From: an uncultured Prevotella sp.
Lineage (GTDB): Bacteria > Bacteroidota > Bacteroidia > Bacteroidales > Bacteroidaceae
Assembly (NCBI GenBank): GCA_900315545.1
Contig: OMZM01000002.1
Location: 124,001-188,000 of the forward strand
Direction: 5' to 3'
Length of the DNA: 64,000 nucleotides
Part shown: positions 1 to 53,031 of the stretch, piece by piece
How the letters are laid out: each line of letters begins with the position of its first letter
Position numbering within the stretch: the stretch's first letter is position 1
Position numbers and translations under genes: made by a program
Notes under the pieces: model-generated
What the model was told of the DNA's origin: nothing
What the model saw: the letters and a program-made list of their open reading frames with translations, nothing else
Databases searched by the model: none

Positions 1-859
1 GGGCGACGGCAAGGAACTGAAGACTATGGTCGACAATGCCGAGCTTGTCGAGAAACTGGCAGGCTGCAACTTGCCGAGAAAGGAGTTCTTCCAGTTCACC
101 ACGTCAGAGGGCATCAGCCTTAACGGAGTGATGATAAAGCCTGTAGATTTCGACGAAACAAAGAAATATCCCGTTGTCATGTATCAGTACAGCGGTCCCG
201 GCAGCCAGCAGGTAGTCAACTCATGGAGCATCGGCTCGATGGGGCAGGGCGGACTCTACGACCAGTACCTGACGCAGCTGGGCTTCATCGTGGTGTGCGT
301 AGACGGTAGAGGCACGGGTGCCAGAGGTGCCGATTTTGAGAAATGCACATATCTCCGACTGGGCGAACTCGAAGCCAGAGACCAGGTGGAAACTGCCGTT
401 TATCTCGGCACTCTGCCGTATGTCGACAAGGAGAAGATAGGCATCTGGGGCTGGAGCTTCGGCGGTTTCTGCACGCTTATGAGCATGAGCGAGGGCAGAG
501 AGGTGTTTGCAGCCGGCGTGGCAGTGGCTCCTCCGACAGACTGGCGCTATTACGACTCTGTATACACCGAGCGTTTCATGCGTACGCCGCAGGAAAATGC
601 TGAGGGCTACGACATTAACCCGATAAACAGGGCTGACAAGTTGCATGGCGCACTGCTCGTATGTCATGGCTTGGCAGACGACAACGTGCATCCGCAGAAC
701 GCCTTTGAGTATTCTGAAGCACTCGTGCAGGCTGACAAAGACTTCCGCGAACTGATTTACACCAACCGCAATCACGGCATCAGGGGCGGAAACTCGCGCA
801 ACCATCTGCTGCGCCAGATAACAACGCACTTCGTAAACGAACTTATAGAAAAGAAATAG
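1..859 (+). CDS. S9 family peptidase (dipeptidyl peptidase IV-like), C-terminal part
   Basis: The gene runs in from before the window; the reading frame is open from base 2, so the first ATG (base 26) is only internal. The visible part is the alpha/beta-hydrolase catalytic domain of prolyl oligopeptidase family S9. It has the nucleophile elbow GWSFGG (serine codon at 455-457), the acid motif HGLADDNVH and the histidine motif RNHGIRGG, in the order of a Ser-Asp-His triad. Bacteroidales DPP-IV enzymes remove X-Pro dipeptides from peptides in the periplasm; that this one prefers proline is inferred from family resemblance. The N-terminal beta-propeller and signal peptide lie outside the window. 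A strong terminator follows the stop codon. Confidence 0.9.
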   Translation, partial: GDGKELKTMVDNAELVEKLAGCNLPRKEFFQFTTSEGISLNGVMIKPVDFDETKKYPVVMYQYSGPGSQQVVNSWSIGSMGQGGLYDQYLTQLGFIVVCVDGRGTGARGADFEKCTYLRLGELEARDQVETAVYLGTLPYVDKEKIGIWGWSFGGFCTLMSMSEGREVFAAGVAVAPPTDWRYYDSVYTERFMRTPQENAEGYDINPINRADKLHGALLVCHGLADDNVHPQNAFEYSEALVQADKDFRELIYTNRNHGIRGGNSRNHLLRQITTHFVNELIEKK

Positions 860-919
860 TCAGTCCGTCGAAGGCATTCTTTAGGAAAGTGCACTCTATG
901 AGTGCTGGCTGACAACATG

Positions 920-973
920 CTCTCTGCCGACATCTGTTTATTAATAAAGATGTCGGCAGAGAGTATTGTTTTT
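920..973 (+). terminator. Rho-independent terminator after the S9 peptidase
   Basis: A perfect 16-bp stem (920-935 with 948-963) encloses a 12-base loop and is followed by a T-rich tract (964-973). It lies about 60 bases after the peptidase stop codon. Confidence 0.9.
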
Positions 974-1000
974 ACAGTCTGACAGTCATCCTCATGCAGG

Positions 1001-1457
1001 AAAATACTAATCAATTTTGGCTCGTTTACTGTCGCGTGAGTGCCCTCGAAACCCGTTTCGGAAATTACGGGGGCAAAATATGCCCAAATTTCGCATATTC
1101 TCGTAATTGTCTGACAATCAATTTGTTATGGTAAAATGTTGCATTTATTCGCACGAAATGTATATGTTAAAATTGTCAAAGAGTATGTTTGACATTCTCA
1201 AACACACTGTTTGAGGCGGTCAGACATAGTGTTTGGGGGTGTCGGGCGTAGTGTTTTGCAGGGCAAAATAGACCAGATAGGCGCGTCAAACATGCTCTTT
1301 GACAATTTTAACAGTTATCGCCGACTCTAAAATTAACACAATTTTGCACTTCCAATGCCCGTTCCGATTCTATTTGAACGTTTTTTCCCTGTCAAAAATT
1401 TTCATACTTTTTCGGTACGAAAGAAAATCCTGGCGAGTTTGGCACAGTTTTTGCTGC
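1001..1457 (+). repeat. Interspersed 450-bp element, copy A (22-bp phased palindrome array)
   Basis: This is the first of five related intergenic copies (others near 12.3, 24.3, 38.2 and 52.6 kb). The left flank contains GTTTACTGTCGCG and GCCCTCGAAA, the right flank TTTCCCTGTC and GTTTGGCACA. The centre holds six 17-bp units starting at 1176, 1198, 1220, 1242, 1264 and 1286, so exactly 22 bp apart: TCAAAGAGTATGTTTGA, TCAAACACACTGTTTGA, TCAGACATAGTGTTTGG, TCGGGCGTAGTGTTTTG, a degenerate AT-rich unit, and TCAAACATGCTCTTTGA. The outer units lie in 26-bp inverted arms (1167-1192 and 1286-1311) that match at 25 of 26 positions. No open reading frame is shared with the other copies. It fills most of the gap between the S9 peptidase and iorA. 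Function unknown. Confidence 0.9.
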
Positions 1458-1535
1458 GCATCGCAAATCGACCTCAGGAAATCCTCCTTATTTAATATGT
1501 AAAATCAATAATAAACTAAAAAAATGTTTTTTCTC

Positions 1536-1566
1536 TTTGTCATTTGAAAGAAAATCGGTATATTTG
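1536..1566 (+). promoter_or_regulatory. Bacteroidetes-type promoter for iorA
   Basis: A TTTG -33 box (1536-1539) and a TATATTTG -7 box (1559-1566) are separated by 19 bases, matching the Bacteroidetes consensus. The predicted leader to the iorA ATG is about 75 bases. Confidence 0.7.
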
Positions 1567-1649
1567 CATGGTTGTTATAATAATAACAAATTTAACACAG
1601 GAAAAATAATTTTGATTGTTATAAATTAAATCTAAAAAACAAAAACAAT

Positions 1650-3260
1650 ATGAAGAAACTTCTTTTAGGCGACGAGGCTATAGCACAGGGTGCTATCGAT
1701 GCCGGACTGAGTGGTGTCTATGCCTATCCAGGTACTCCTTCCACAGAGATAACGGAGTACATCCAGATGTCGCCGTTGGCTAAAGAACGCGACATTCATC
1801 GTCGTTGGTCATCTAACGAAAAAACAGCAATGGAAGCAGCGCTCGGTATGTCGTACATGGGCAAGCGCGCACTTGTCTGCATGAAGCACGTCGGACTGAA
1901 CGTATGTGCCGACCCATTCGTAAACTCTGGCATGACTGGAGTGAACGGCGGACTTGTTGTTCTCGTGGCTGATGACCCCTCGATGCACTCATCGCAGGAC
2001 GAGCAGGACAGCCGTTTCTATGGCAAGTTCGCAATGATACCTACATTCGAACCAAGCTCGCAGCAGGAAGCATACGACATGATGGCAGTGGCTTTCGACT
2101 ATTCTGAACAGCAGAAACTGCCCGTACTCATGCGCGTAACAACACGCATGGCACACTCGCGCGCCGTAGTGGAAATAAAAGACGAGGCACGCAAGGAAAA
2201 CGAACTCAACTACAACGCTGAGGCAAGCAGCTGGGTGCTGCTACCTGCAAACGCACGCAAGCGCAACGACATCGTTACGGCACAGCAGGCTGTACTCGAG
2301 GAAAACGCTGTAAACTCACAGTTCAACAAGTACATCGACGGAAAAGACAAGTCGCTCGGCATCATTGCCAGCGGTATCGGATTCAACTATCTGAACGAAT
2401 GCTTCCCGACAGGATGCCCTTATCCAGTGCTGAAAGTATCGCAGTACCCATTGCCAAAGAAACTCGTGCGCAAGATGTGCGACGAATGCGAGTCAGTACT
2501 GGTAGTGGAAGAAGGACAGCCGTTCATCGAAGACCAGCTTCGCGGAGTAATGCCGGGCAACGCAGTCATCAAGGGACGTCTGACAGGCGAGCTGCCACGC
2601 ACGGGCGAACTCAACCCTGACGTTGTGAAGAAAGCACTCGGTATGCCTACCGACGAAAACTATGCATCGTGCGAAGACGTGGCACCACGCCCACCAGCAC
2701 TCTGTCAGGGATGCGGACACCGCGACGTTTACGCTGCTCTCAACGAAGTGCTGCGCGAGTACGAAAACCCACGCGTGTTCGGAGACATAGGTTGCTACAC
2801 TCTCGGATTCCTCCCTCCATACAAGGCAATACACTCTTGCGTAGACATGGGAGCAAGTATCACGATGGCAAAGGGTGCCGCAGATGCAGGACAGTGGCCA
2901 GCAGTAGCTATCATAGGCGACTCTACATTCACACACAGCGGAATGACTGGTCTCCTCGATGCTATCAATGAAAACGCAAACATCACGGTAATCATCAGCG
3001 ACAACCTCACAACAGGTATGACAGGCGGACAGGACTCAGCCGGAACAAACAAGTTTGAGGCTATCTGTCGCGGACTCGGCATCGAAGAAGAACACCTGCG
3101 CTACGTCGTTCCTCTGCCAAAGAACATGCCGGAAATCACACGCATCATACGCGAGGAAATAGAGTATAAAGGCACATCTGTCATCATTCCGCGACGCGAA
3201 TGTATGCAGACACTGCAACGTCATTTGAAACAAAAGAAAGCAAAGGAGGCAAACAAATAA
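1650..3260 (+). CDS. iorA: Indolepyruvate ferredoxin oxidoreductase, alpha subunit
   Basis: This 536-residue protein is the thiamine-diphosphate subunit of the enzyme that oxidatively decarboxylates aryl pyruvates (indolepyruvate, phenylpyruvate) to aryl-acetyl-CoA with ferredoxin as acceptor. The N-terminal pyruvate-ferredoxin-oxidoreductase domain begins GDEAIAQGAIDAGLSGVYAY and continues PGTPSTE. The C-terminal TPP-binding domain has CQGCGHRDVY and GDSTFTHSGMTG followed by a downstream asparagine-rich stretch. The protein stops soon after the TPP domain and has no C-terminal Cys-rich [4Fe-4S] ferredoxin module, which longer IorA proteins carry. The stop codon overlaps the iorB start by one base (TAATG), so the subunits are translationally coupled. 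Confidence 0.95.
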   Translation: MKKLLLGDEAIAQGAIDAGLSGVYAYPGTPSTEITEYIQMSPLAKERDIHRRWSSNEKTAMEAALGMSYMGKRALVCMKHVGLNVCADPFVNSGMTGVNGGLVVLVADDPSMHSSQDEQDSRFYGKFAMIPTFEPSSQQEAYDMMAVAFDYSEQQKLPVLMRVTTRMAHSRAVVEIKDEARKENELNYNAEASSWVLLPANARKRNDIVTAQQAVLEENAVNSQFNKYIDGKDKSLGIIASGIGFNYLNECFPTGCPYPVLKVSQYPLPKKLVRKMCDECESVLVVEEGQPFIEDQLRGVMPGNAVIKGRLTGELPRTGELNPDVVKKALGMPTDENYASCEDVAPRPPALCQGCGHRDVYAALNEVLREYENPRVFGDIGCYTLGFLPPYKAIHSCVDMGASITMAKGAADAGQWPAVAIIGDSTFTHSGMTGLLDAINENANITVIISDNLTTGMTGGQDSAGTNKFEAICRGLGIEEEHLRYVVPLPKNMPEITRIIREEIEYKGTSVIIPRRECMQTLQRHLKQKKAKEANK

Positions 3261-3832
3261 TGAAAACCGATATCATCCTCTGCGGTGTGGGCGGACAAGG
3301 CATCCTCTCAATCGCAACAATCATAGGCGAAGCAGCCATGAACGAAAACCTCTACATCAAGCAGGCAGAGGTACACGGAATGTCGCAGCGAGGCGGCGAC
3401 GTACAGAGCAATCTGCGCATATCGTCAGAACCAATCAACAGCGACCTCATTGCGCTCGGCAGCGCAGACGTAATCATCTCAATGGAGCCAATGGAAGCAC
3501 TGAGATACCTGCCTTACCTGAGCAAGAACGGATGGATCATCACATCGAGCACGCCATTTGTAAACATACCTAACTATCCGGAAATGGAAACAATTAAGGC
3601 TGACCTTAACAAGATAGACAACGTGATAGTAGTAGACATTGAGCAGATGGCAAAGGACAACGGAGTGCCACGCTCGGCAAACGTAATACTCTTGGGAGCT
3701 GCACAGAAGGCACTCGGTATAGAGTACGACAAGCTCGAAGATGCCATCAGACGTGTGTTCGGACGAAAGGGAGACGCTGTCGTAGACGCAAACATCAAGG
3801 CGCTCGCTCTCGGAAAACAGGTACAGAAATAA
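3260..3832 (+). CDS. iorB: Indolepyruvate ferredoxin oxidoreductase, beta subunit
   Basis: This 190-residue protein is the gamma-type subunit that completes the IorAB enzyme. It begins MKTDIILCGVGGQGILS, the glycine-rich start typical of the 2-oxoacid:acceptor oxidoreductase gamma domain, and continues with EVHGMSQRGGDVQS, a signature of the family. The ATG at 3260 overlaps the iorA TAA by one base and is preceded by AAAGGAGG (3242-3249), an unusually good Shine-Dalgarno site for this group. An upstream in-frame start at 3200 lies inside iorA and is rejected. With iorA and the next aminotransferase gene it forms a small aromatic amino-acid catabolic unit. Confidence 0.95.
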   Translation: MKTDIILCGVGGQGILSIATIIGEAAMNENLYIKQAEVHGMSQRGGDVQSNLRISSEPINSDLIALGSADVIISMEPMEALRYLPYLSKNGWIITSSTPFVNIPNYPEMETIKADLNKIDNVIVVDIEQMAKDNGVPRSANVILLGAAQKALGIEYDKLEDAIRRVFGRKGDAVVDANIKALALGKQVQK

Positions 3833-3859
3833 GCAAACAAGCGAAATGATAATAAAAGG

Positions 3860-3890
3860 GGCTATAGAAATATAGCCTCTATATTGTTTT
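3860..3890 (+). terminator. Small hairpin between iorB and the aminotransferase
   Basis: A perfect 7-bp stem GGCTATA/TATAGCC with a GAAA tetraloop (3860-3877) is followed by a weakly T-rich tract ending in TTTT at 3890. It could be a partial terminator or a processing site lowering expression of the downstream aminotransferase. Confidence 0.5.
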
Positions 3891-3911
3891 ATAAGAATAG
3901 AAACTCACAAC

Positions 3912-5225
3912 ATGAAACCAACACCAATAAAGAAAGAAGTCGTAGACAAGCTGATTGCCGACTTCGGAATACAGGATTTCTCAAAGGCTACGATACGCGA
4001 AGTGAAGCAGGTCGCTGCCTTTGCAGAAAAAGAATCAGGAGTGGAGTTTATAAAAATGGAAATGGGTATTCCAGGACTTCCTGCCGCTCAGGTGGGTGTG
4101 AAAGCACAGATAAAGGCTCTGGAAGACGGCATCGCAAGCATGTACCCAGACATACAGGGATATCCGGAACTGAAAAAACAGGCTTCACGCTTCGTAAAGG
4201 CATTCATCAACGTAGACATAAAGCCGGAAGGATGCGTGCCGGTATGCGGAAGCATGCAGGGAGGATTTGCATCGTTCCTGACTTGTTCGCAGGCTGACAA
4301 GAAGAAGGACACGGTGCTGTTCATCGATCCGGGATTTCCAATACAGAAGATGCAGCTGCAAGTACAGGGCGTGAAATACATCACTTTCGACGTCTATGAA
4401 TATCGCGGAGAGAAGCTGCGAGAGAAGCTGGAAAGCTATCTGAAGAACGGAAATATATGCGCCGTAGTCTACAGCAATCCTAACAACCCGTCGTGGATTT
4501 GCTTCACCGACGACGAACTGAAAATCATCGGCGAGCTCGCTACTAAGTACGACACAATAATAATGGAAGACCTCGCATACTTCGCTATGGACTTCCGCAA
4601 GGACTTGAGCAAGCCGTTTGAACCGCCTTACCAGCCCTCAGTGGCACACTACACCGACAACTACATTCTGCTCATCAGTGGCTCTAAGGCTTTCAGCTAT
4701 GCTGGCGAGCGTATAGGAGTAACGTGTATCAGCGACAAACTGTTCCACCGTCACTACGACGACCTTGCCGCGCGCTACGAAGGACTGCCTTTCGGACTCG
4801 TGTTCTCTACAAGAATGCTCTATGCACTGTCATCTGGCACAAGCCACAGCGCACAGTACGGTCTGGCAGAACTGCTGAAGGCTGCATGCGACGGAAACTA
4901 CAATTTCCGCGACGACATAAAGGTTTACGGCGAGCGTGCTCATAAACTGAAGGAAATATTCCTGCGTCATGGATTCCACGTGGTTTACGATAAGGACCTC
5001 GACGAGCCTATTGCCGACGGATTCTACTTCACGATAGGCTACAAGGGTATGACCAGCGGTGAGCTGGCTCACGAACTGATGTACTACGGTGTCAGCGGAA
5101 TATGTCTCGTAACGACAGGTTCTGAGCAGGAAGGACTGCGTGTATGCACATCGTTTATAGAAGACCACCAGTATTCGCAGCTTGATGAGCGCATGGCGAT
5201 ATTTGCCGAAAACCATCCACAATAG
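3912..5225 (+). CDS. Pyridoxal-phosphate aminotransferase, class I/II
   Basis: This 437-residue protein is a fold-type I PLP aminotransferase. The cofactor lysine lies in SGSKAFSYAGERIG, and the substrate-binding region has YSNPNNPSW and an upstream glycine-rich GSMQGG. Aminotransferases of this class convert amino acids to 2-oxoacids with 2-oxoglutarate as acceptor. Its position 79 bases after iorAB suggests it makes or uses aryl pyruvates, the IorAB substrates, but the exact amino acid cannot be read from the sequence. The ATG at 3912 is the only start compatible with a full N-terminus. A strong bidirectional terminator follows. Confidence 0.85.
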   Translation: MKPTPIKKEVVDKLIADFGIQDFSKATIREVKQVAAFAEKESGVEFIKMEMGIPGLPAAQVGVKAQIKALEDGIASMYPDIQGYPELKKQASRFVKAFINVDIKPEGCVPVCGSMQGGFASFLTCSQADKKKDTVLFIDPGFPIQKMQLQVQGVKYITFDVYEYRGEKLREKLESYLKNGNICAVVYSNPNNPSWICFTDDELKIIGELATKYDTIIMEDLAYFAMDFRKDLSKPFEPPYQPSVAHYTDNYILLISGSKAFSYAGERIGVTCISDKLFHRHYDDLAARYEGLPFGLVFSTRMLYALSSGTSHSAQYGLAELLKAACDGNYNFRDDIKVYGERAHKLKEIFLRHGFHVVYDKDLDEPIADGFYFTIGYKGMTSGELAHELMYYGVSGICLVTTGSEQEGLRVCTSFIEDHQYSQLDERMAIFAENHPQ

Positions 5226-5253
5226 AAACCTATTAATATAATAAGGTATAATA

Positions 5254-5290
5254 ATAAAAGCGATACTTATATTGAGTATCGCTTTTATTT
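5254..5290. terminator. Bidirectional terminator between converging genes
   Basis: A perfect 14-bp stem (5254-5267 with 5275-5288) and 7-base loop has A-rich sequence on one side and T-rich on the other, so it can end transcription from both the aminotransferase (plus) and the small envelope operon (minus). Confidence 0.85.
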
Positions 5291-5313
5291 GTTTCTCTTT
5301 CTCCTACAGTTTA

Positions 5314-5604
5314 TTATAAAAACAGTCGGGACAGCAGTCCCTTCTTAGTCTTCTTCTTCCTGTTCGGGCTGAAACGCTGGTAGAGTTTCCATCCCAGTAT
5401 GGCACCATCGACTATTCCCATGCTTTTGCTCATCAGTCCCTGAATACGGTTTGTAGGAGTCTTTACCTCTTGCTTGGCAAACAGTCCGTTCCACAATTGC
5501 GTTATCTCGCCATTGTCTTTCTGCAACATCTGTCGCAGTTCCTGCTTGCGCATCCTGATGTCGTCAAGCGAGTGATAGAGCATTGATGAATAGTTTTTCG
5601 TCAT
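5314..5604 (-). CDS. Small hypothetical protein, third gene of the YtxH/holin-like operon
   Basis: I do not recognise this 96-residue protein. It is basic, with a Met/Arg/Gln-rich helical N-terminal half (SLDDIRMRKQELRQML) and a Lys/Arg-rich tail (NRKKKTKKG), and has one moderately hydrophobic stretch (GIVDGAILGWKLYQRF). I chose the ATG at 5604; an in-frame TTG at 5625 would add seven residues and lie closer to the upstream stop. It follows a DUF1469-like membrane protein and a YtxH protein. This order recalls the enterobacterial yqjD-yqjE-yqjK cluster of stress-linked inner-membrane proteins, so a structural or membrane-associated role is plausible. That is inference from layout only. Confidence 0.65.
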   Translation of the reverse strand: MTKNYSSMLYHSLDDIRMRKQELRQMLQKDNGEITQLWNGLFAKQEVKTPTNRIQGLMSKSMGIVDGAILGWKLYQRFSPNRKKKTKKGLLSRLFL

Positions 5605-5634
5605 ATTAAGATGATGTTTGGACAAAACAATAAT

Positions 5635-5985
5635 TTACTTGTCTAACAAAATGCTTGCCAGCAACCGCACAAGCGGACGCTCAATGAGCCTCTTCCTGTT
5701 CATGACAACAATCAGAAAGATGACAATATAGAATGCGGCAACGATAAGGAAAGCAATGGCTGTTCCGGTATAGCTGGCAAGTGCAAATGCCAGCGAGATA
5801 GACAAATACAGCAAGACAGCCATCAGGGCAAGCGTACTTATGGCAATAATTGCAAAAATAGTTATCAGCCGAACAACTTTTTCTGCAACATCAAGCTTCA
5901 CAAACTCAGTCTGCAAGCCAAGATAGTGCTTGAATTTCTCTATCAGTTGAGTTATCGATTCAACATTCTTATCGTTGGAAAACAT
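5635..5985 (-). CDS. Phage holin-like family membrane protein (YqjE/DUF1469 type)
   Basis: The 116-residue protein has a helical N-terminus (SITQLIEKFKHYLGLQTEFV), two close membrane segments (about residues 38-62 and 70-94) and a short basic cytoplasmic end with MNRKRLIERPLVRLLA. This is the layout of the so-called phage holin superfamily III, whose chromosomal members such as YqjE are not phage holins and have no proven lytic role. It sits between the YtxH gene and a small hypothetical gene on the minus strand, presumably one transcript from the promoter at 6310-6340. No phage genes are nearby, so I read it as a housekeeping membrane protein. Confidence 0.75.
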   Translation of the reverse strand: MFSNDKNVESITQLIEKFKHYLGLQTEFVKLDVAEKVVRLITIFAIIAISTLALMAVLLYLSISLAFALASYTGTAIAFLIVAAFYIVIFLIVVMNRKRLIERPLVRLLASILLDK

Positions 5986-6044
5986 CTCTATAAACTATTG
6001 TTATATGTCTGATTACACAATAAATTGTAGGAAACAATCTCTAT

Positions 6045-6260
6045 TTAGTCATAATCTTCAGCTGCATCCTGAATGTCGTCTACAAGGTCATCCATTTCCT
6101 TGCGGTTGAGTTTCAGGTTATGCTTCTTGCAGAAGTCAGAAACAGTTTCAGATATTTTACTACGAGTGTCAGCTCCCTTTTCCGGTGCCAACAACAATCC
6201 CAATGCAGTTCCGGCAATAGCTCCACCTAAGAAAGCGCCGATATAGCCTAATGTTTTCAT
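6045..6260 (-). CDS. YtxH domain-containing small protein
   Basis: This 71-residue protein starts with MKTLGYIGAFLGGAIAGTA, a glycine/alanine-rich membrane segment, followed by LGLLLAPEKGADTRSKI. That GLLLAPEKG-type motif marks YtxH proteins. The remainder is a charged helix ending in acidic residues (DIQDAAEDYD). YtxH proteins are small stress-associated membrane-anchored proteins without a defined biochemical activity. It is the first gene of the three-gene minus-strand operon, with a clear promoter just upstream. Confidence 0.8.
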   Translation of the reverse strand: MKTLGYIGAFLGGAIAGTALGLLLAPEKGADTRSKISETVSDFCKKHNLKLNRKEMDDLVDDIQDAAEDYD

Positions 6261-6309
6261 AATTATAATGTTTTTATTAGTTAAGTAATGATATTTATTT
6301 GTCGTTTCG

Positions 6310-6340
6310 CAAATGTACGAAAACTTTTCAATACATCAAA
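6310..6340 (-). promoter_or_regulatory. Promoter for the YtxH operon
   Basis: On the minus strand a TTTG -33 box (6337-6340) and a TACATTTG -7 box (6310-6317) are separated by 19 bases, the consensus arrangement, about 50 bases from the YtxH start. Confidence 0.7.
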
Positions 6341-6432
6341 TTTTTCAGCCTCTTTTTTTCATAAATCAACGAGTTTTAAGGTATTTAACAATCTTTATGT
6401 AGGCAAATGTATTGTTATTCCAACATTTTATG

Positions 6433-6440
6433 TAATTTCG
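6433..6440 (+). promoter_or_regulatory. Probable -7 box for the SPOR lipoprotein gene
   Basis: TAATTTCG resembles the TAnnTTTG box with one change and has TTG 18 bases upstream (6412-6414). It lies 49 bases before the ATG. Confidence 0.45.
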
Positions 6441-6489
6441 CCACGAATAGTGAAAATATACATTTATTATTATAAAAAAGCATATTAAC

Positions 6490-6978
6490 ATGAAGAAATC
6501 AATGATTCTTTGCACAGGTATGTGCATCGCTTTAGCCTTCACTGGCTGTAAGTCAAAAGAAAGTGCTTATCGTCAGGCTTATGAAAAGGCACAGGCGGCA
6601 GAAGCTGCGGCTGAGGCTGCGACAGCAGTCGAAAACCAGCCAGTAGTTACTCCATTGCAGGAAAGACCTATAACGGAAAACAAGGTTGTTGACAATATGG
6701 ACAATGTGTCTGTAAGACAGGAAAACCTGACTGTCGTAAGCGGCAGTGGATTGCGCAGTTTCAGCGTAGTTGTAGGCTCATTCTCGGTAAAGGCAAATGC
6801 AGAAGGACTGCAGAAACTGCTTATCAATGCAGGCTACAACGCACAGATAGCATACAATTCTGACAGAAATATGTACCGCGTCATTGCTTCAACATTCGAC
6901 AACAAGTATGATGCAGTGCAGAGCCGTGAGCAGCTGCGTGGCAAATATCCTGACGCATGGTTGCTCTTTAACCAGTAG
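6490..6978 (+). CDS. SPOR domain-containing lipoprotein
   Basis: The 162-residue protein has a lipoprotein signal peptide (MKKSMILCTGMCIALAFTGC, lipobox FTGC with cysteine 20). An Ala/Glu-rich helix (AQAAEAAAEAATA) and a linker follow, then a C-terminal SPOR domain from about residue 90 (SFSVVVGSFSVKANAEGLQK through MYRVIAST). SPOR domains bind peptidoglycan denuded of stem peptides, so the protein probably tethers the outer membrane to the wall or acts at the division site. It lies 26 bases before ruvX and probably heads a transcript with ruvX, def and the TPR gene. Confidence 0.85.
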   Translation: MKKSMILCTGMCIALAFTGCKSKESAYRQAYEKAQAAEAAAEAATAVENQPVVTPLQERPITENKVVDNMDNVSVRQENLTVVSGSGLRSFSVVVGSFSVKANAEGLQKLLINAGYNAQIAYNSDRNMYRVIASTFDNKYDAVQSREQLRGKYPDAWLLFNQ

Positions 6979-7004
6979 AATACATAATACGCTTTTGCCC
7001 TTTT

Positions 7005-7433
7005 ATGGCACGGTTAATGGCTATTGACTATGGGAAGAAGCGGACAGGAATAGCCGTAACCGACCCATTGCAGATAATTGCAGGCGGGTTGGCTACGGTT
7101 ATGACGTCGAAACTGTTTGACTTCATTGCTGAATACATGAAGAGCGAAACAGTGGAATGCATCGTTGTGGGAGAACCGCGACAGCCAAACGGAATGCCAA
7201 GCGAAAACATGCAGCGCGTGAAGGAGTTTGCAAACAGGTGGAAGAAATTATATCCGGAAATTCCACTCGTATTCTACGATGAAAGATTTACGTCTGTTTT
7301 GGCACACAAGGCAATGATAGACGGAGGTCTGAAGAAGAAAGCGCGCGCTGACAAGGCGCTGGTTGACGAAATCAGCGCAACTATCTTGCTGCAAGACTAC
7401 ATGAATTCGTCTAAGCGGAAGTTAAGCAGATAA
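7005..7433 (+). CDS. ruvX: Putative pre-16S rRNA nuclease / Holliday junction resolvase, YqgF family
   Basis: This 142-residue protein has the RNase H-like fold of YqgF: N-terminal MAIDYGKKRTGIAVTD with the first catalytic aspartate, central CIVVGEPRQPNG, then FYDERFTS and a C-terminal DEISATILLQDYM with the last acidic residue. The E. coli homologue trims the 5' end of 16S rRNA; a resolvase role was proposed earlier from the fold. Length is normal for the family. It is followed after 76 bases by def. Confidence 0.9.
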   Translation: MARLMAIDYGKKRTGIAVTDPLQIIAGGLATVMTSKLFDFIAEYMKSETVECIVVGEPRQPNGMPSENMQRVKEFANRWKKLYPEIPLVFYDERFTSVLAHKAMIDGGLKKKARADKALVDEISATILLQDYMNSSKRKLSR

Positions 7434-7509
7434 TTAACAAAACAGAATAACAAATATCTTGTTCCCATAACTATAAATAGCGGAATAAGTAAATACGAAA
7501 AGTCTGAAA

Positions 7510-8073
7510 ATGATATTACCTATATATATATATGGTCAGCCAGTATTAAGGAAGGTGGCACAAGACATCGACGAAAACTATCCTGAATTGCAAAAGCTTA
7601 TCGAAGATATGTTCGAGACTCTCGATGCCTCAGGCGGTATAGGCTTGGCGGCACCTCAGATAGGCAAGGACATTCGCGTGTCAGTCATCGATTTGAACGT
7701 GCTGGCAGATGATCTGCCTGAGTATAAGGGCTTCCGCAAGGCTTTCATCAATCCGCATATCGTGGAATATGACGACACGGAAACCGACACAATGGAAGAA
7801 GGCTGCCTCTCGTTGCCTGGTCTTCACGAGAACGTTACGCGCCCTAAACGCATACACGTCAAGTGGTTAGATGCGGAAATGAATGCCCACGACGAGTGGA
7901 TTGACGGTTATCTGGCGCGAGTAATGCAGCATGAGTTCGACCATCTTGACGGTCATGTGTTCATCGACCGCATATCGCCGATGCGCCGACAGCTGATAAA
8001 AAGCAAGGTGCGTGCTTTGCTGCAAGGACGATACAGATGCTCATACCGCACAAAAGCAGCACCGAAAAAATAA
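7510..8073 (+). CDS. def: Peptide deformylase
   Basis: The enzyme removes the formyl group from the N-terminal methionine of new proteins, using an active-site metal. All three family motifs are present in order: GGIGLAAPQIG (residues 42-52), EEGCLSLPG carrying the metal cysteine, and QHEFDHLDG with the HExxH-type metal histidines and catalytic glutamate. At 187 residues it is of normal bacterial length, with a slightly extended basic C-terminus (RTKAAPKK). The next gene starts 9 bases after the stop, so the two are cotranscribed. Confidence 0.97.
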   Translation: MILPIYIYGQPVLRKVAQDIDENYPELQKLIEDMFETLDASGGIGLAAPQIGKDIRVSVIDLNVLADDLPEYKGFRKAFINPHIVEYDDTETDTMEEGCLSLPGLHENVTRPKRIHVKWLDAEMNAHDEWIDGYLARVMQHEFDHLDGHVFIDRISPMRRQLIKSKVRALLQGRYRCSYRTKAAPKK

Positions 8074-8082
8074 ACAGATGCA

Positions 8083-10047
8083 ATGATAAGAAAGCTCGTA
8101 TCCTTTATATGTGCATTGCTACCGTTAACAATATATGCCCAGTTCAATGTAGAACATCTTGTTGCTAACGGTCGCAATGCTCTTTTTTTTGAAGACTATG
8201 TGCTTTCAATACAATACTTCAACCGAGTAATTACTTATAAGCCATTCCTTTACGAAGCGTGGTACTATCGCGGAATGGCAAAATTTTATCTCGACGACTA
8301 CAGCAGTGCAGAGAACGACTGCACTGAGGCGATAAGGCGAAATCCATATATTGCAGACATCTATGAGCTTCGTGGACTGTGCCGCATCAGACAGGAGAAA
8401 TTCCAGGAAGCCATAGGCGACTACGACAAGGCTATAGAATATAATCCCGACGGCAAGAATTATTGGTTCAACAGGGCATTGTGCCGCATCAGTCTGAAAG
8501 ACTACGGACAGGCACATCAGGATCTCGATTCCATCGTAAGACGTTGGAATAATTTTGCGCGTGCTTATGCCGTGCAGGCAGAAGTCTATATGCAGGAGAA
8601 AGATACAACGTCGGCAATAGCATGGCTTGACAAGTCTTTGGAGTGCGATGCCTATGATGTAGACTCGTGGATGGCACGCGCACAGATAAGTATGGCGCGC
8701 CAACAGTGGGGCAGCGCAGAACAGCAGTTGTCAAAAGCAATACATCTGCGACCAAACATTCCCGCAAACTATGTCAACCGAGCCTTAGCGCGACTGAGGA
8801 CAAACAACCTGCGCGGAGCAATGGCTGACTATGATGCGGCAATAGAATTCGACCCCGACAATTTCCTCGCACACTATAATCGTGGACTGTTGCGAATACA
8901 GGTGGGCGACGACAACAGGGCAATCGACGATTTCAACTATATCATAAAGAATGAGCCAGACAATCTCATGGCAATATACAACCGTGCCATGCTGTATCAG
9001 CGTACAGGGCAGTTGAGGATGGCAATAAGCGACTATTCCAAGATAATAAGGCAGTATCCTAATTTCTGGAACGGTCTGTACAACCGCTCGGAGTGTTATC
9101 GTAAGCTCGGCATGCACAGGCAGGCAGATGCTGACGTGGCACGCATAGTAAAGGCGCAGATGGACAAACATGTCGGCATACAGCCGCGCTGGAGCAAGGC
9201 TATGCTTGCCGAGACAAGGAAGAAAAGCGAGATAGATTTCTCAAAGTACAACCGTATTGTCATGCCTGACGAGCAGCAGATAAACCACGAATATGAGAGC
9301 TCATATCGCGGCAAGGTGCAAAACCGAATAGTAATGGATGAGCCTATGCCAATGTTCCATGTGTCGTTGTTGCCGTACACCAATTCCGTTGCAAGTGAAG
9401 CAATATTCAACGAAGATGTGGAAACCATCAATGCTATGAACATTGCTACGCGCAAACTGAACGTAACGTGCAACCCTCAGGCACTGACGGCAAGCGAGTC
9501 GAAGCAGACACTCGACTATATAGACAGCCTTGCGTTTGCCATAAACAACTCGTTCCAACAAGATGAAACATTTGCCCTGCTTTTCTCTCGTGCAGTAAGC
9601 AATACCGTAGCGCAAGACCTGAATAACGCTATAATAGACCTTACTACCTGTCTCAATATCGACAGCCTGTCGATGCTTGTCTACTGGCAGCGTGCCGTGT
9701 GCTTCTTCATGCAGAGTCAGATAGACATGTCGCAGGGGGACAACAGCCGTTTCAAGATAAATCAGGCTCTCTACGACATTGAGCAGGCTATAAAGCTGTC
9801 GCCTGCGAACGCGCTGCTATACTACAATAAGGCAAACATATTGTTCCAACAGCGCAAATATACTGAAGCCATCAGTGAGTACGGCAGGGCTCTGTCGCTC
9901 AACTCCAATCTGGCTGAAGCATACTACAACAGAGGACTGGCACACATGCGAATAACCCATCGCAACGAAGCCATTGCCGATTTGAGCAAGGCAGGCGAGT
10001 TGGGACTCTATTCGGCATACAGCGTGATGAAGCGAATAGGCATGTAG
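8083..10047 (+). CDS. Tetratricopeptide repeat protein, secreted
   Basis: The 654-residue protein begins with a signal peptide (MIRKLVSFICALLPLTIYAQ), so it acts in the periplasm or outer membrane. Two blocks of TPR repeats follow, about residues 25-330 and 480-650, visible as recurring units such as YYRGMAKFYLDDYSSAENDC, YELRGLCRIRQEKFQEAIGD and YYNRGLAHM. Between them is a non-TPR linker (about 340-470). TPR arrays bind proteins; a scaffold role is likely but the partner cannot be read from the sequence. It is cotranscribed with def, and Bacteroidales genomes often place a TPR gene between def and thrS. Confidence 0.85.
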   Translation: MIRKLVSFICALLPLTIYAQFNVEHLVANGRNALFFEDYVLSIQYFNRVITYKPFLYEAWYYRGMAKFYLDDYSSAENDCTEAIRRNPYIADIYELRGLCRIRQEKFQEAIGDYDKAIEYNPDGKNYWFNRALCRISLKDYGQAHQDLDSIVRRWNNFARAYAVQAEVYMQEKDTTSAIAWLDKSLECDAYDVDSWMARAQISMARQQWGSAEQQLSKAIHLRPNIPANYVNRALARLRTNNLRGAMADYDAAIEFDPDNFLAHYNRGLLRIQVGDDNRAIDDFNYIIKNEPDNLMAIYNRAMLYQRTGQLRMAISDYSKIIRQYPNFWNGLYNRSECYRKLGMHRQADADVARIVKAQMDKHVGIQPRWSKAMLAETRKKSEIDFSKYNRIVMPDEQQINHEYESSYRGKVQNRIVMDEPMPMFHVSLLPYTNSVASEAIFNEDVETINAMNIATRKLNVTCNPQALTASESKQTLDYIDSLAFAINNSFQQDETFALLFSRAVSNTVAQDLNNAIIDLTTCLNIDSLSMLVYWQRAVCFFMQSQIDMSQGDNSRFKINQALYDIEQAIKLSPANALLYYNKANILFQQRKYTEAISEYGRALSLNSNLAEAYYNRGLAHMRITHRNEAIADLSKAGELGLYSAYSVMKRIGM

Positions 10048-12262: not shown

Positions 12263-12291
12263 CATGCTTATTTTTGCTGATTTTCGACTCA

Positions 12292-12719
12292 CAGCAAAAA
12301 GTGTGCCAAACTTACCAAGATTTTCTTTCTACCCCGAAAAATATGAAAAATTTTGACACGGGAAAACTCTCCAAATAGATGCGGAACAGCCTACGAAATT
12401 GCCAAAATATGCAAAATTCGTCATAAGATATGCGTGTTAAAAATGTCAAAGAGTATGTTTGAGGCAGGAAACTGCACGTTCTCGCACGATTACGGGTTGG
12501 CTGTCATATCGTTACAGATGGCTTGTAACAGTGTAACGGAGTATCTGTAAGAGGATTACAAGACGCTTGTAAAAATCCTGTAATCCATATTTGAAAGTCA
12601 AAGCGCTAACAGTCAGCAAATTAGTCGATAACTCAAAATACTCGCGTATTTGCCGAAAAATATTTCGGAACGACTTTCGCGGGCATTCTTGCGACAGTAA
12701 AAACAGTAAAATTGGTTAA
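12292..12719 (-). repeat. Interspersed 450-bp element, copy B (variant array)
   Basis: This is the element read in the opposite direction to copy A. Both flanks match the family (CAGCAAAAAGTGTGCCAAAC at one end, GCGACAGTAAAAACAG near the other). Its array begins with the family unit TCAAAGAGTATGTTTGA at 12446, but later units in the same 22-bp phase use a different palindrome: TTACAGATGGCTTGTAA (12512), TAACGGAGTATCTGTAA (12534) and TTACAAGACGCTTGTAA (12556). Units at 12468, 12490 and 12578 are degenerate. The copy sits between the thrS terminator and the infC promoter, splitting a gene pair usually adjacent in bacteria. Confidence 0.85.
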
Positions 12720-24259: not shown

Positions 24260-24710
24260 CAGCAAAAAGTGTGCCAAACTCGCCAGACTTTTCTTTCGGA
24301 GCGAAAAAGTATGAAAAATTTTGACAGGGAAAAACTTGCAAAATAGAAGCGGAACAGGCGCTGAAAGTGTGAAAATATGCAAAAATCCGTGCCGGCGATA
24401 ATTGTTAAAATTGTCAAAGAGTATCTTTGAGCCCACTATTTAGCCTATTTTGCCATGTAATACATAATGTCCGGCACCCCCAAACACTATGTCTGACCTC
24501 CTCAAACAGTGTGTTTGACAATGTCAAATATACTCTTTGACAATTTTAACATATACAATTCGTGTGTATAAATGCTATATTTAGCGATAACAAACTGACT
24601 GCCAGGCGATTATGGATACATGCGGATTTTGGGCATATTTTGCCCCTCAGATTTCCGAAACGGCTTTCGAGGGCATTCTCGCGACAGTAAACGGGCGAAA
24701 ATTGATTAGC
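24260..24710 (-). repeat. Interspersed 450-bp element, copy C
   Basis: Element in reverse orientation relative to copy A. On the plus strand the six 17-bp units start at 24414, 24436, 24458, 24480, 24502 and 24524, exactly 22 bp apart: TCAAAGAGTATCTTTGA, the AT-rich CTATTTAGCCTATTTTG, TAATACATAATGTCCGG, CCAAACACTATGTCTGA, TCAAACAGTGTGTTTGA and TCAAATATACTCTTTGA. The 26-bp arms (24405-24430 and 24524-24549) pair with one mismatch. Flanks match copies A, D and E. It occupies the gap between the M13 peptidase terminator and the spt promoter. Confidence 0.9.
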
Positions 24711-38178: not shown

Positions 38179-38632
38179 AAAATACTAATCAATTTTCGCC
38201 CGTTTACTGTCGCGTGACTGCCCTCGAAAGCCGTTTCGGAAATTACGGGGGCAAAATACGCCCAAAATTTGCATTTGTCTGTATGCTTTTGATAGTCAGT
38301 TTGTTAGCGAGAAATATAAGCCTTGTGCGCACGAAATGTATATGTTAAAAATGTCAAAGAGTATGTTTGAGATTGTCAAACACACTGTTTGAGGCTGCCA
38401 AACATAGTGTTTGGGGGTGAAAAACGCTATGTCTGACAAGGCAAAAAAGGCGAAATAGGCGCGTCAAAGGTAGTCTTTGACATTTTTAACAATTATCATT
38501 GACTCGAAAATTAACAGAAAATTGCAGTTTCAGGAGTTGTCCCGATTCTATTTGAACGATTTTTCCCTGTCAAAATTTTTCATCTTTTTTCGGCTCGAAA
38601 GAAAAATCTGACAAGTTTGGCACACTTTTTGT
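38179..38632 (+). repeat. Interspersed 450-bp element, copy D
   Basis: Same orientation as copy A and nearly the same length. Six 17-bp units start at 38354, 38376, 38398, 38420, 38442 and 38464: TCAAAGAGTATGTTTGA, TCAAACACACTGTTTGA, CCAAACATAGTGTTTGG, AAAAACGCTATGTCTGA, an AT-rich unit and TCAAAGGTAGTCTTTGA. The arms (38345-38370 and 38464-38489) carry a compensatory change against copy A: AATTGTC/GACAATT becomes AAATGTC/GACATTT. It lies between the start of the TonB receptor and the end of the zinc-ribbon lipoprotein gene. Confidence 0.9.
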
Positions 38633-50177: not shown

Positions 50178-52433
50178 ATGATGCGAAACAAACTACTCTT
50201 GACACTTTTTGCGTGTTTCTGCCTGATACGACCGACAGCGGCACAGCAACCGATAGATTACGTCGACCCAATGATAGGAACGACAAACTTTTCCGTATGC
50301 AATCCCGGCGCAGTCTTGCCGCACGGATTGATGTCGGTAGTGCCGTTCAACGTTATGGGCAGCGACCTCAACGAGTTTGACAAGGATGCGCGTTGGTGGT
50401 CGGCACCATACGAAAAGAACAATAAGTTCTTCACAGGTTTTGCACACGTAACGCTCAGCGGCGTGGGATGCCCCGAAATGGGAACACTGCTGACAATGCC
50501 AACCAACAAACTCGACGTCGACTATCATAACTACGGCACTACATACAGCAACGAAAAGTCGACGCCAGGATACTATTCCGTAAACCTTGACAACGGCATA
50601 AAGGCTGAAGCAACGGCAACGCTGAGAACATCTATCGAGAGGTTTACCTTTGCCACTGGCGGCGAAAAACATCTCTTGCTCAATCTCGGCGAAGGACTGA
50701 CAAACGAAACGGGAGCAATGGTAAGGAGAGTCAGCGACACCGAGATAGAAGGCATGCGATTGCTCGGCACTTTCTGCTACAACTCGCAAGCCGTATTCCC
50801 CATCTACTTCGTAATGAAAGTTTCAAAGCAACCAAAGCAATCGGGGTACTGGAAAAAGCAGCCACAAATGAAGGGAGTAGAGGCGCAATGGGATAAAGAC
50901 AACGGTAAATACAAACTTTATAGAAACTATGGTAAAGAGTTGGCTGGCAATGAGATAGGATATTTCATGTCGTTCGATTGTTCAGAAGGCGAACAGCTGA
51001 TGCTGAAGATGGGAGTATCGTTTGTCTCTATTGAGAATGCACGCAGAAATCTCAATGCCGAACAAGACGGATTCGACTTTGAAGGCACACACCAGCAGGC
51101 ACGTCGACAATGGGAAGAAACACTAAGCAAAGTAACGGTGGAAGGAGGTACGGAAGAACAGAAAAAGGTTTTCTACACGGCTCTCTACCATACGCAGATT
51201 CATCCTACAATACTGCAAGATGTCAACGGCGAATATCCAAAAATGGAAAGCAGCGAAACGGCTCACACCAACGGCAACCGATACACCGTTTTCTCGCTAT
51301 GGGACACATATCGAAACCTGCATCAGCTCGAAACACTGCTATATCCTGAAAAGCAACTCGACATGGTGCGCTCTATGATCGACATGCAGAAAGAGTGGGG
51401 ATGGATGCCAAAATGGGAACTTTTCGGGCGTGAAACGTGGACGATGGAGGGCGACCCGTCCATTCCTGTCATAACCGACACCTACCTGAAAGGACTCACC
51501 GACATCGACATTCATACTGCCTACGATGCCTTTGTGCGCTCTGCGACGTTGGAAGGAAAGCAAAACAAGATGCGTCCCGACATCGATGAGTATCTGTCTC
51601 GCGGCTATATACCGCTGGGAGTCTACTCTCAAGACGAATCGGGCGACAACTCCGTCAGTCATGCACTGGAATACTACGTTGCCGATGCAGCACTGGCGCG
51701 ACTTGCCGATGCTCTCGGCAAGAAAGACGATGCCAAGCGTTTCCGCAAGCAAAGCCTGCGTTACAAGGAATATTACTCTAAGGAATACGGCACGCTGAGG
51801 CCACGCCGAGCCGACGGCTCTTTCCTCACACCGTTTAATCCGGAAGACGGTGCCGACTTCAGCAATGCACCTGGATTCCACGAGGGTTCTGCATGGAACT
51901 ATACTTTTGCAGTGCCACACGATATAGAAGGGCTCGCTCGCCTCATGGGAGGCAAGAAGGCATTTGTCGACAAGTTGCAGCGTGTATTCGACGAAGGACT
52001 CTATGACCCTGCAAACGAGCCCGACATAGCATACCCATATATCTTCAGCCACTTCAAGGGCGAAGAATGGCGAACGCAGAAGGAAGTAAGACGACTGCTG
52101 CAACAATACTACCGTGCCACGCCCGACGGCATACCAGGCAACGACGACTGCGGAACTATGTCGGCATGGGCTGTGCTGTCAATGATTGGGTTGTACCCCG
52201 ACATACCCGGAGACCCGTCGTACACACTGACAACGCCTACATTCACAAGCGTCAAAATACATCTTGACAACCGATATTATCCAAACGGCGACATCACGAT
52301 AGAGACAAAGGCGCAAGACCCCAGCCAGTATGTCATCGGCAGCATACTGCTCGACGGAAAACCACACAACAGCCATAGAATAACGCACGAACAGCTAAAG
52401 AAAACTGGCAAAATCACGTTTGTGCTGAAATAG
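50178..52433 (+). CDS. GH92 family alpha-1,2-mannosidase
   Basis: The 751-residue protein starts with a signal peptide (MMRNKLLLTLFACFCLIRPT ending in TAAQQ). The N-terminal GH92 beta-sandwich follows with IDYVDPMIGTTNFSVCNPGA and HGLMSVVPFN. The (alpha/alpha)6 barrel has YTVFSLWDTYRNLHQLE, FHEGSAWNYTFAVPHD and GNDDCGTMSAWAVLSMIGLY, the last a family hallmark containing the catalytic acid region. GH92 enzymes are calcium-dependent exo-alpha-mannosidases that act on N-glycans or yeast mannan. No SusCD pair or sugar regulator is adjacent, so this is a stand-alone enzyme rather than part of a polysaccharide utilisation locus. Confidence 0.95.
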   Translation: MMRNKLLLTLFACFCLIRPTAAQQPIDYVDPMIGTTNFSVCNPGAVLPHGLMSVVPFNVMGSDLNEFDKDARWWSAPYEKNNKFFTGFAHVTLSGVGCPEMGTLLTMPTNKLDVDYHNYGTTYSNEKSTPGYYSVNLDNGIKAEATATLRTSIERFTFATGGEKHLLLNLGEGLTNETGAMVRRVSDTEIEGMRLLGTFCYNSQAVFPIYFVMKVSKQPKQSGYWKKQPQMKGVEAQWDKDNGKYKLYRNYGKELAGNEIGYFMSFDCSEGEQLMLKMGVSFVSIENARRNLNAEQDGFDFEGTHQQARRQWEETLSKVTVEGGTEEQKKVFYTALYHTQIHPTILQDVNGEYPKMESSETAHTNGNRYTVFSLWDTYRNLHQLETLLYPEKQLDMVRSMIDMQKEWGWMPKWELFGRETWTMEGDPSIPVITDTYLKGLTDIDIHTAYDAFVRSATLEGKQNKMRPDIDEYLSRGYIPLGVYSQDESGDNSVSHALEYYVADAALARLADALGKKDDAKRFRKQSLRYKEYYSKEYGTLRPRRADGSFLTPFNPEDGADFSNAPGFHEGSAWNYTFAVPHDIEGLARLMGGKKAFVDKLQRVFDEGLYDPANEPDIAYPYIFSHFKGEEWRTQKEVRRLLQQYYRATPDGIPGNDDCGTMSAWAVLSMIGLYPDIPGDPSYTLTTPTFTSVKIHLDNRYYPNGDITIETKAQDPSQYVIGSILLDGKPHNSHRITHEQLKKTGKITFVLK

Positions 52434-52582: not shown

Positions 52583-53031
52583 CAGCAAATACCGTGCCAA
52601 ACTCAACAGATTTTTCCTTCAAGCCGAAAAATGATGAAAAATTTTGACAGGGAAAAACTCTCCAAATAGAATAGGAATAGTCCTTGAAAGTGTAAAAATA
52701 TGTAAAAATCGGTGTCGGCGATAATTGTTAAAATTGTCAAAGAGTACCTTTGAGGCATCTATTTCGCCTATTTTGCCCTGTCATACATAGCGTTTTTCAT
52801 ACCCAAACACTATGTTTCACAGCCTCAAACAGTGTGTTTGACAATGTCAAACATGCTCTTTGACAATTTTAACATATACATTTCATGCTCACAAGGCTTA
52901 TGTCTGACTCTAATAGTTTGACTGTCAGAGGATTATGGATGTATGCGAATTTTGGGCATATTTTGCCCCTGCAATTTCTGAAATGACTTTCGAGGGCACT
53001 CACGCGACAGTAAACGAGCCAAAATTGATTA
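52583..53031 (-). repeat. Interspersed 450-bp element, copy E
   Basis: Reverse orientation relative to copy A. On the plus strand six 17-bp units start at 52737, 52759, 52781, 52803, 52825 and 52847, exactly 22 bp apart: TCAAAGAGTACCTTTGA, CTATTTCGCCTATTTTG, TCATACATAGCGTTTTT, CCAAACACTATGTTTCA, TCAAACAGTGTGTTTGA and TCAAACATGCTCTTTGA. The arms (52728-52753 and 52847-52872) pair with a few mismatches. It fills most of the gap between the convergent ends of the GH92 gene and a small membrane protein gene; the remaining 140 bases hold nothing I can identify. Confidence 0.9.

Follow-up and report, generated by a model that had tools for sequence, protein, structure and literature searches.

A 22-bp-phased dyad array lies at the core of a dispersed, evenly spaced 447-bp repeat with a sigma54-type motif at one end in an uncultured Prevotella

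The array of six 17-bp units found in a 64,000-nucleotide stretch of an uncultured Prevotella genome (the window) is the middle third of a larger 447-bp repeat. The account that best fits the evidence, and to which about an even chance is given, is that the array is the binding core of a non-coding, MITE-like family of about 127 intergenic copies, in which a cooperative regulator array is coupled to a sigma54 promoter. A preliminary description of the window had captured the geometry of the array, while the surrounding 447-bp element, its sigma54-type end and the even distribution of copies at about 12 kb were absent from it. The window contains four full copies and one remnant of the element:

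1008..1454, + strand: full 447-bp element, copy A, delimited by alignment with other copies
1165..1313, + strand: 149-bp core of copy A, with the 11-bp outer repeat TGTTAAAAWTG at both ends and six 17-bp units
1438..1454, + strand: sigma54 -24/-12 type motif TTTGGCACAGTTTTTGC, right end of copy A
12286..12466, - strand: copy B remnant, right domain and outermost dyad (sigma54-type motif 12294-12310)
12600..12718, - strand: copy B remnant, part of the left domain; other sequence replaces the array between the two parts
24262..24708, - strand: full 447-bp element, copy C (core 24403-24551; sigma54-type motif 24262-24278)
38186..38632, + strand: full 447-bp element, copy D (core 38343-38491; sigma54-type motif 38616-38632, GT at -12)
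52585..53031, - strand: full 447-bp element, copy E (core 52726-52874; sigma54-type motif at 52585-52601, which reads TATTTGC owing to a single T-to-A change)

The element consists of a 157-bp left domain, the 149-bp core and a 141-bp right domain, and extends from TAATCAATTTT at one outer end to TTTGGCAC-N2-TTTTTG[C/T] at the other. When 28 oriented copies are aligned with 700-bp flanks (one short copy dropped), conservation reaches well beyond the core and has sharp ends, and stops in all six frames rule out a coding element. A profile search of 711 kb, or 31% of the 2.29-Mb draft host genome, returns 54 matches, of which 39 are full copies with lengths of 447 bp (28 copies) or 446, 448 or 449 bp (11 copies); the 157/149/141 geometry is present in 28 of the 39. 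The remaining 15 matches are truncated, rearranged, located at contig ends or members of an outer-end-variant subfamily, and this subfamily, comprising about 8 of the 54, has different outer ends and is missing the promoter motif, which counts against the preferred reading. Full copies show 99.8 substitutions and 0.83 indel events per pair, with 382 of the 741 pairs lacking any indel. The ratio of 120 substitutions to one indel at a sequence divergence of 22% argues for the preferred reading, in a set of full copies that was picked by end-to-end profile coverage and hence favours intact ones. Copy B has, in place of the array, a sequence at 12467-12599 that contains different inverted repeats (TTACAG/CTGTAA type, as judged by eye), and short tandem-like AACGGGAACGATAACCTTAACG-type tracts are visible by eye beside several elements (host contigs C17, ~450-600, and C33, ~52160-52245 and 52725-52790). 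A 19-bp inverted repeat followed by a T-rich stretch at 917-966 of the window is probably a terminator downstream of the peptidase gene (26-859).

The core has TG...CA ends and 29-bp inverted arms, and its units in copy A start at a 22-bp pitch at positions 1176, 1198, 1220, 1242, 1264 and 1286. Copies A, C, D and E share all six positions, in agreement with the exact phase first reported for them. The consensus originally given for the units, TCAAACA-N3-TGTTTGA, occurs far above chance in the window (15 matches at two or fewer mismatches versus 0.49 expected from 100 shuffles), but the most constant letters are instead TCAAA-N7-TTTGA, which are near-invariant in units 1, 2 and 6. This shorter motif occurs 150 times at elements and not once outside them in 711 kb of host genome, a distribution that favours the preferred reading. 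The view of all six units as palindromes holds for units 1, 2 and 6, which are strong dyads, and more weakly for unit 3, but unit 4 is a poor dyad and unit 5 is an A-rich sequence that is not a dyad at all. The mean numbers of dyad pairs (of 8) for units 1 to 6 are 6.0, 6.9, 5.3, 3.3, 2.8 and 6.4 in the 54 cores of 149 bp, where 11 cores of other length are left out and about 2 pairs are expected for equal random letters. These belong to a set of 65 distinct cores, with identical sequences collapsed, drawn from six contig pieces and 40 loci by requiring matching core ends 95-125 bp apart, with or without the outer element ends. Core length is 149 bp in 54, 148 bp in 10 and 145 bp in one, and all 11 length changes fall by eye between units 4 and 6. 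The distance from unit 1 to unit 2 is constant in 65 of 65 cores, the position of unit 1 and the end of unit 6 being fixed by the pattern used to find them. Across the 65 cores and 39 full copies, the register is thus kept while letters change, and for this reason the selection on spacing proposed in the preliminary description is well supported.

The right end of the element resembles a sigma54 promoter. The sequence TTTGGCAC-N2-TTTTTG[C/T] is present in 38 of the 39 full copies, with one further change in the last, and GG-N10-G[C/T] is found in all 39, where the last base is C in 24 and T in 15; the GT in place of GC at -12 in these 15 copies speaks against the preferred reading. The exact sigma54-type pattern occurs 129 times in the host genome and its reversed control not at all, which speaks for it. 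In 99 other congeners the exact pattern occurs 0-2 times per genome and is present in 20, and the reversed control has one match in each of four, so that some of the congener sites may be due to chance. At eight congener loci, four of which have an assigned gene identity, the motif precedes HSP90 genes in three and a GrpE gene in one, in further support of the preferred reading, and in Bacteroides thetaiotaomicron grpE and groES are sigma54-dependent according to the available part of the source (PMC12316311). The host encodes a single RpoN together with one protein that matches Sigma54_activat strongly and has AAA+ and Fis-type HTH domains, as expected on the preferred reading, while three weaker AAA+ matches over the cut-off weigh against it. 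A second, marginal RpoN-family match reads as an IS30-like transposase, by reading alone and without a family search. The TCAAA-N7-TTTGA motif is found neither at the eight congener sigma54 loci nor at the host's own rpoN and activator loci, which also weighs against the preferred reading. The host HSP90 homologue is 78% identical to that of a congener. An element lies directly upstream of it in the sense direction (locus L108, ~1081-1454, contig C49), and another sigma54-like site is located closer to the gene. A promoter region of this kind could be the ancestor of the element. A general role as a promoter for neighbouring genes was considered and rejected, as the promoter side is in sense with the gene it faces in 20 of 38 copies and antisense in 18, and the choice of C or T at -12 is independent of sense or antisense gene placement (39 copies, P 0.33).

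In the host genome there are 127 forward and 128 reverse matches to the exact core-end pattern, giving about 127 core pairs; 398 other congeners, a sample from a larger group, have none. A BLAST search with the 447-bp sequence over 99 congeners identifies one decayed right half in a single genome (G005:C7:9858-10016, L052), and a scan of a wider contig collection gives at least three stretches among the matches listed, one of which (L066) scores as chance. The plasmid and phage collections contain no match to the element, and IMG/VR yields one 4.9-kb contig with a single core-end-like site and no element. A phage contig with terminase- and portal-like genes (L109, by reading) carries at 4304-4341 one site that resembles the outer core end and by eye immediately precedes an ATG. 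No description of the 447-bp element was found in the titles and abstract openings of the papers listed by the literature searches, most subscription papers being beyond reach. None of the 51 stronger matches overlaps a called gene, and all are intergenic according to a crude gene caller of our own applied to 31% of the genome (711 kb). The 46 gaps between elements, counted within contigs only and none across contig ends, have a median of 12.07 kb and a coefficient of variation of 0.51, a value reached in neither 5000 draws of a uniform null (0.94) nor 10000 draws of an intergenic null (0.88). Only one gap is under 6 kb, versus 15.5 expected from the intergenic null. The two gaps over 25 kb (37-39 kb) both contain AT-rich stretches, where later insertions may therefore sit; the proteins tested in the long gap of contig C17 include a glycosyltransferase and a Wzt-type transporter. 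Element orientation has no preference relative to genes and is not clearly tied to replication polarity (19 of 51 relative to GC skew, P 0.09).

Comparison of copies suggests that sequence exchange by gene conversion may have occurred among them. In one orthologous copy of the RUG13423 genome, the flanks differ at 13 of 970 positions (1.3%) and the element at 40 of 449 (8.9%) with 0 gap positions, and in a second copy, which begins inside the element, the values are 1 of 111 (0.9%) and 44 of 348 (12.6%) with 1 gap position. Distances among the 39 copies correlate at -0.03 to 0.30 between different blocks of the element and at 0.18 to 0.61 within blocks. Flanks that are alike around diverged elements, together with blocks that are nearly uncorrelated, are what gene conversion predicts. 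Contigs of two other metagenome-assembled genomes (Prevotella sp. RUG753 and Bacteroidales RUG13423) contain blocks 96-98% identical to one host region that adjoin DNA only ~69-74% similar to the host, reflecting either horizontal transfer or chimeric contigs. The host-like blocks (L081/L082, G101:C69; L078, G100:C30) together cover ~20 kb of a single host region that contains two elements. One element at L078 is followed, starting ~110 bp beyond its promoter end, by 8.8 kb of additional DNA (~467-9295) whose genes include Abi-like and HerA-like ones by reading, and this DNA is not found as such in 711 kb of the host genome.

The element shares several features with mobile repeats, being short, non-coding, multi-copy and intergenic as MITEs are (446-449 bp in 39 full copies). 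A rather unlikely alternative is that it is a plain non-autonomous transposon, in which the array is a transposase-binding region and the even spacing a result of target immunity. The ends of Mu and Tn7 also carry repeated ~22-bp sites, and the TG...CA ends and inverted arms of the core, the high number of evenly spaced intergenic copies and the confinement of TCAAA-N7-TTTGA to elements in 711 kb are consistent with such an origin. The core, however, is flanked in the 39 full copies by the conserved domains of 157 and 141 bp, and the outer ends of these copies are unrelated by eye and have no terminal inverted repeats, the inverted arms being located at the inner core. Target-site duplication is likewise not detected (3.67 versus 3.44, sd 0.23, in shuffled pairs; 39 copies), a result that also counts against a MITE-like family and may reflect decay. 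There is no longer, gene-bearing copy among the 54 matches in 711 kb (31% of the genome), possible transposases in the inserts of rearranged copies aside, and it would be unusual for dead transposons to diverge by 22% while gaining hardly any indels. Since a search for outer inverted repeats and target duplications revealed neither, the 447-bp element is not a standard MITE. The spacing is also compatible with a chromosome-organising site, in which arrays occupied by a structuring protein would serve as anchors or boundaries at regular ~12-kb intervals, with the promoter end in a secondary role. This is supported by the low variation of the gaps relative to both nulls, the near absence of gaps under 6 kb, the AT-rich stretches and possible later insertions in both of the longest gaps, the strict geometry and the lack of gene-strand preference. 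It is nevertheless fairly improbable, as the exact core-end pattern is restricted to 1 of 399 genomes of the genus, the host's own, orientation is not clearly tied to GC skew and the binder is putative.

Two further readings of the array itself are both highly improbable. An RNA or cruciform element, with the palindromes acting as hairpins, would account for the short inverted repeats and for the innermost pair of unit 2, which changes on both sides together (36 CC, 18 GG), its centre appearing inverted as a block. Apart from this centre, variation in the inner letters of units 1, 2 and 6 is mostly one-sided and position 9 of the outer repeat shows no covariation, so that compensatory changes are too few for hairpin selection, and Rfam at its gathering threshold identifies no RNA family at the elements and only a tRNA in the window. 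Because the half-sites are near-invariant and mostly without covariation, protein binding fits the units better than hairpins do, and a dimeric protein recognising the half-sites would be the probable ligand. The cooperative operator-like array suggested in the preliminary description is accordingly retained as the best reading of these half-sites, with the binder as a putative component. Replication iterons or gyrase-wrapping sites would fit the helical phasing of the repeats, and 11 bp is the strongest of 11 GC periods tested in the core, but this signal is weak (power 0.56) and no larger than in the right domain (0.69). An iteron array, in which direct repeats mark an origin of replication and are accompanied by a Rep gene, does not fit about 127 dispersed copies that occur in both orientations and, where examined, between genes, and the earlier comparison with iterons is not supported.

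On the preferred reading, the element would work like an operator or enhancer array joined to a sigma54 promoter and multiplied as a dispersed repeat, with a putative binder, a predicted promoter activity and a presumed cause of the even spacing. Dimers of a dedicated regulator may occupy adjacent dyads cooperatively along a single face of the DNA, and the array could then act like an enhancer ~160-270 bp upstream of a sigma54 promoter reading out of the element, perhaps in partnership with the one clear sigma54 activator of the host genome. The family probably spread within the host lineage, its copies being kept alike by gene conversion between them, and the even spacing might arise because insertions near an existing copy are excluded, because close pairs are lost, or because the bound arrays have a role at the scale of the chromosome. 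A bolder and decidedly improbable version is that the copies are ~12-kb docking stations of near-identical length, where a dedicated protein array and a sigma54-type promoter mark or insulate chromosomal segments, with positions and geometry under selection and gene conversion keeping the family coherent.

Dispersed bacterial repeats are often ragged relics, whereas these copies keep their length and site register almost perfectly while drifting by 22%, pointing to selection on architecture. If the sigma54 promoter works, stress could switch on transcription at about a hundred places at once, in both sense and antisense directions. If the even spacing is selected, the family would offer a sequence-defined handle on bacterial chromosome domains, and if it results from target immunity, it would be a visible genome-wide footprint of that process.

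Several known systems share parts of this organisation. NtrC-type enhancers use the 17-bp dyad TGCAC-N7-GTGCA, normally with a few sites at one gene; the element is similar in its 17-bp dyad, its 5-bp half-sites and its location upstream of a -24/-12 motif, but differs in being dispersed and in both orientations. The BrickBuilt MITE of Porphyromonas gingivalis, with 19 copies in ATCC 33277 and reported promoter activity, is also dispersed and strictly intergenic and has a short repeat array between a conserved leader and tail, as far as the available text of its description extends (PMC4596501). According to the same text, its 23-nt direct repeats are without spacers and vary in number from 1 to 22.8, and its ends are small inverted repeats, whereas the element has a six-unit 22-bp lattice, a nearly fixed length of 447 bp, about 127 copies, a sigma54-type end and no outer inverted repeats. 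Correia elements of Neisseria, in the part of the account available (PMC10969869), are comparable in exceeding 120 copies, lying mostly upstream of genes and providing promoters for neighbouring genes; these have sigma70-like promoters and terminal inverted repeats, in contrast to the sigma54-type motif, the even spacing and the lack of outer inverted repeats and target duplication in the element. The BIME-2/REP sequences of Escherichia coli are likewise intergenic palindrome clusters that might contribute to genome organisation in the opinion of the authors, within the accessible portion of their paper, yet these are cruciform-forming REPs bound by gyrase (PMC6379681), while the element has a nearly constant length and protein-type dyads.
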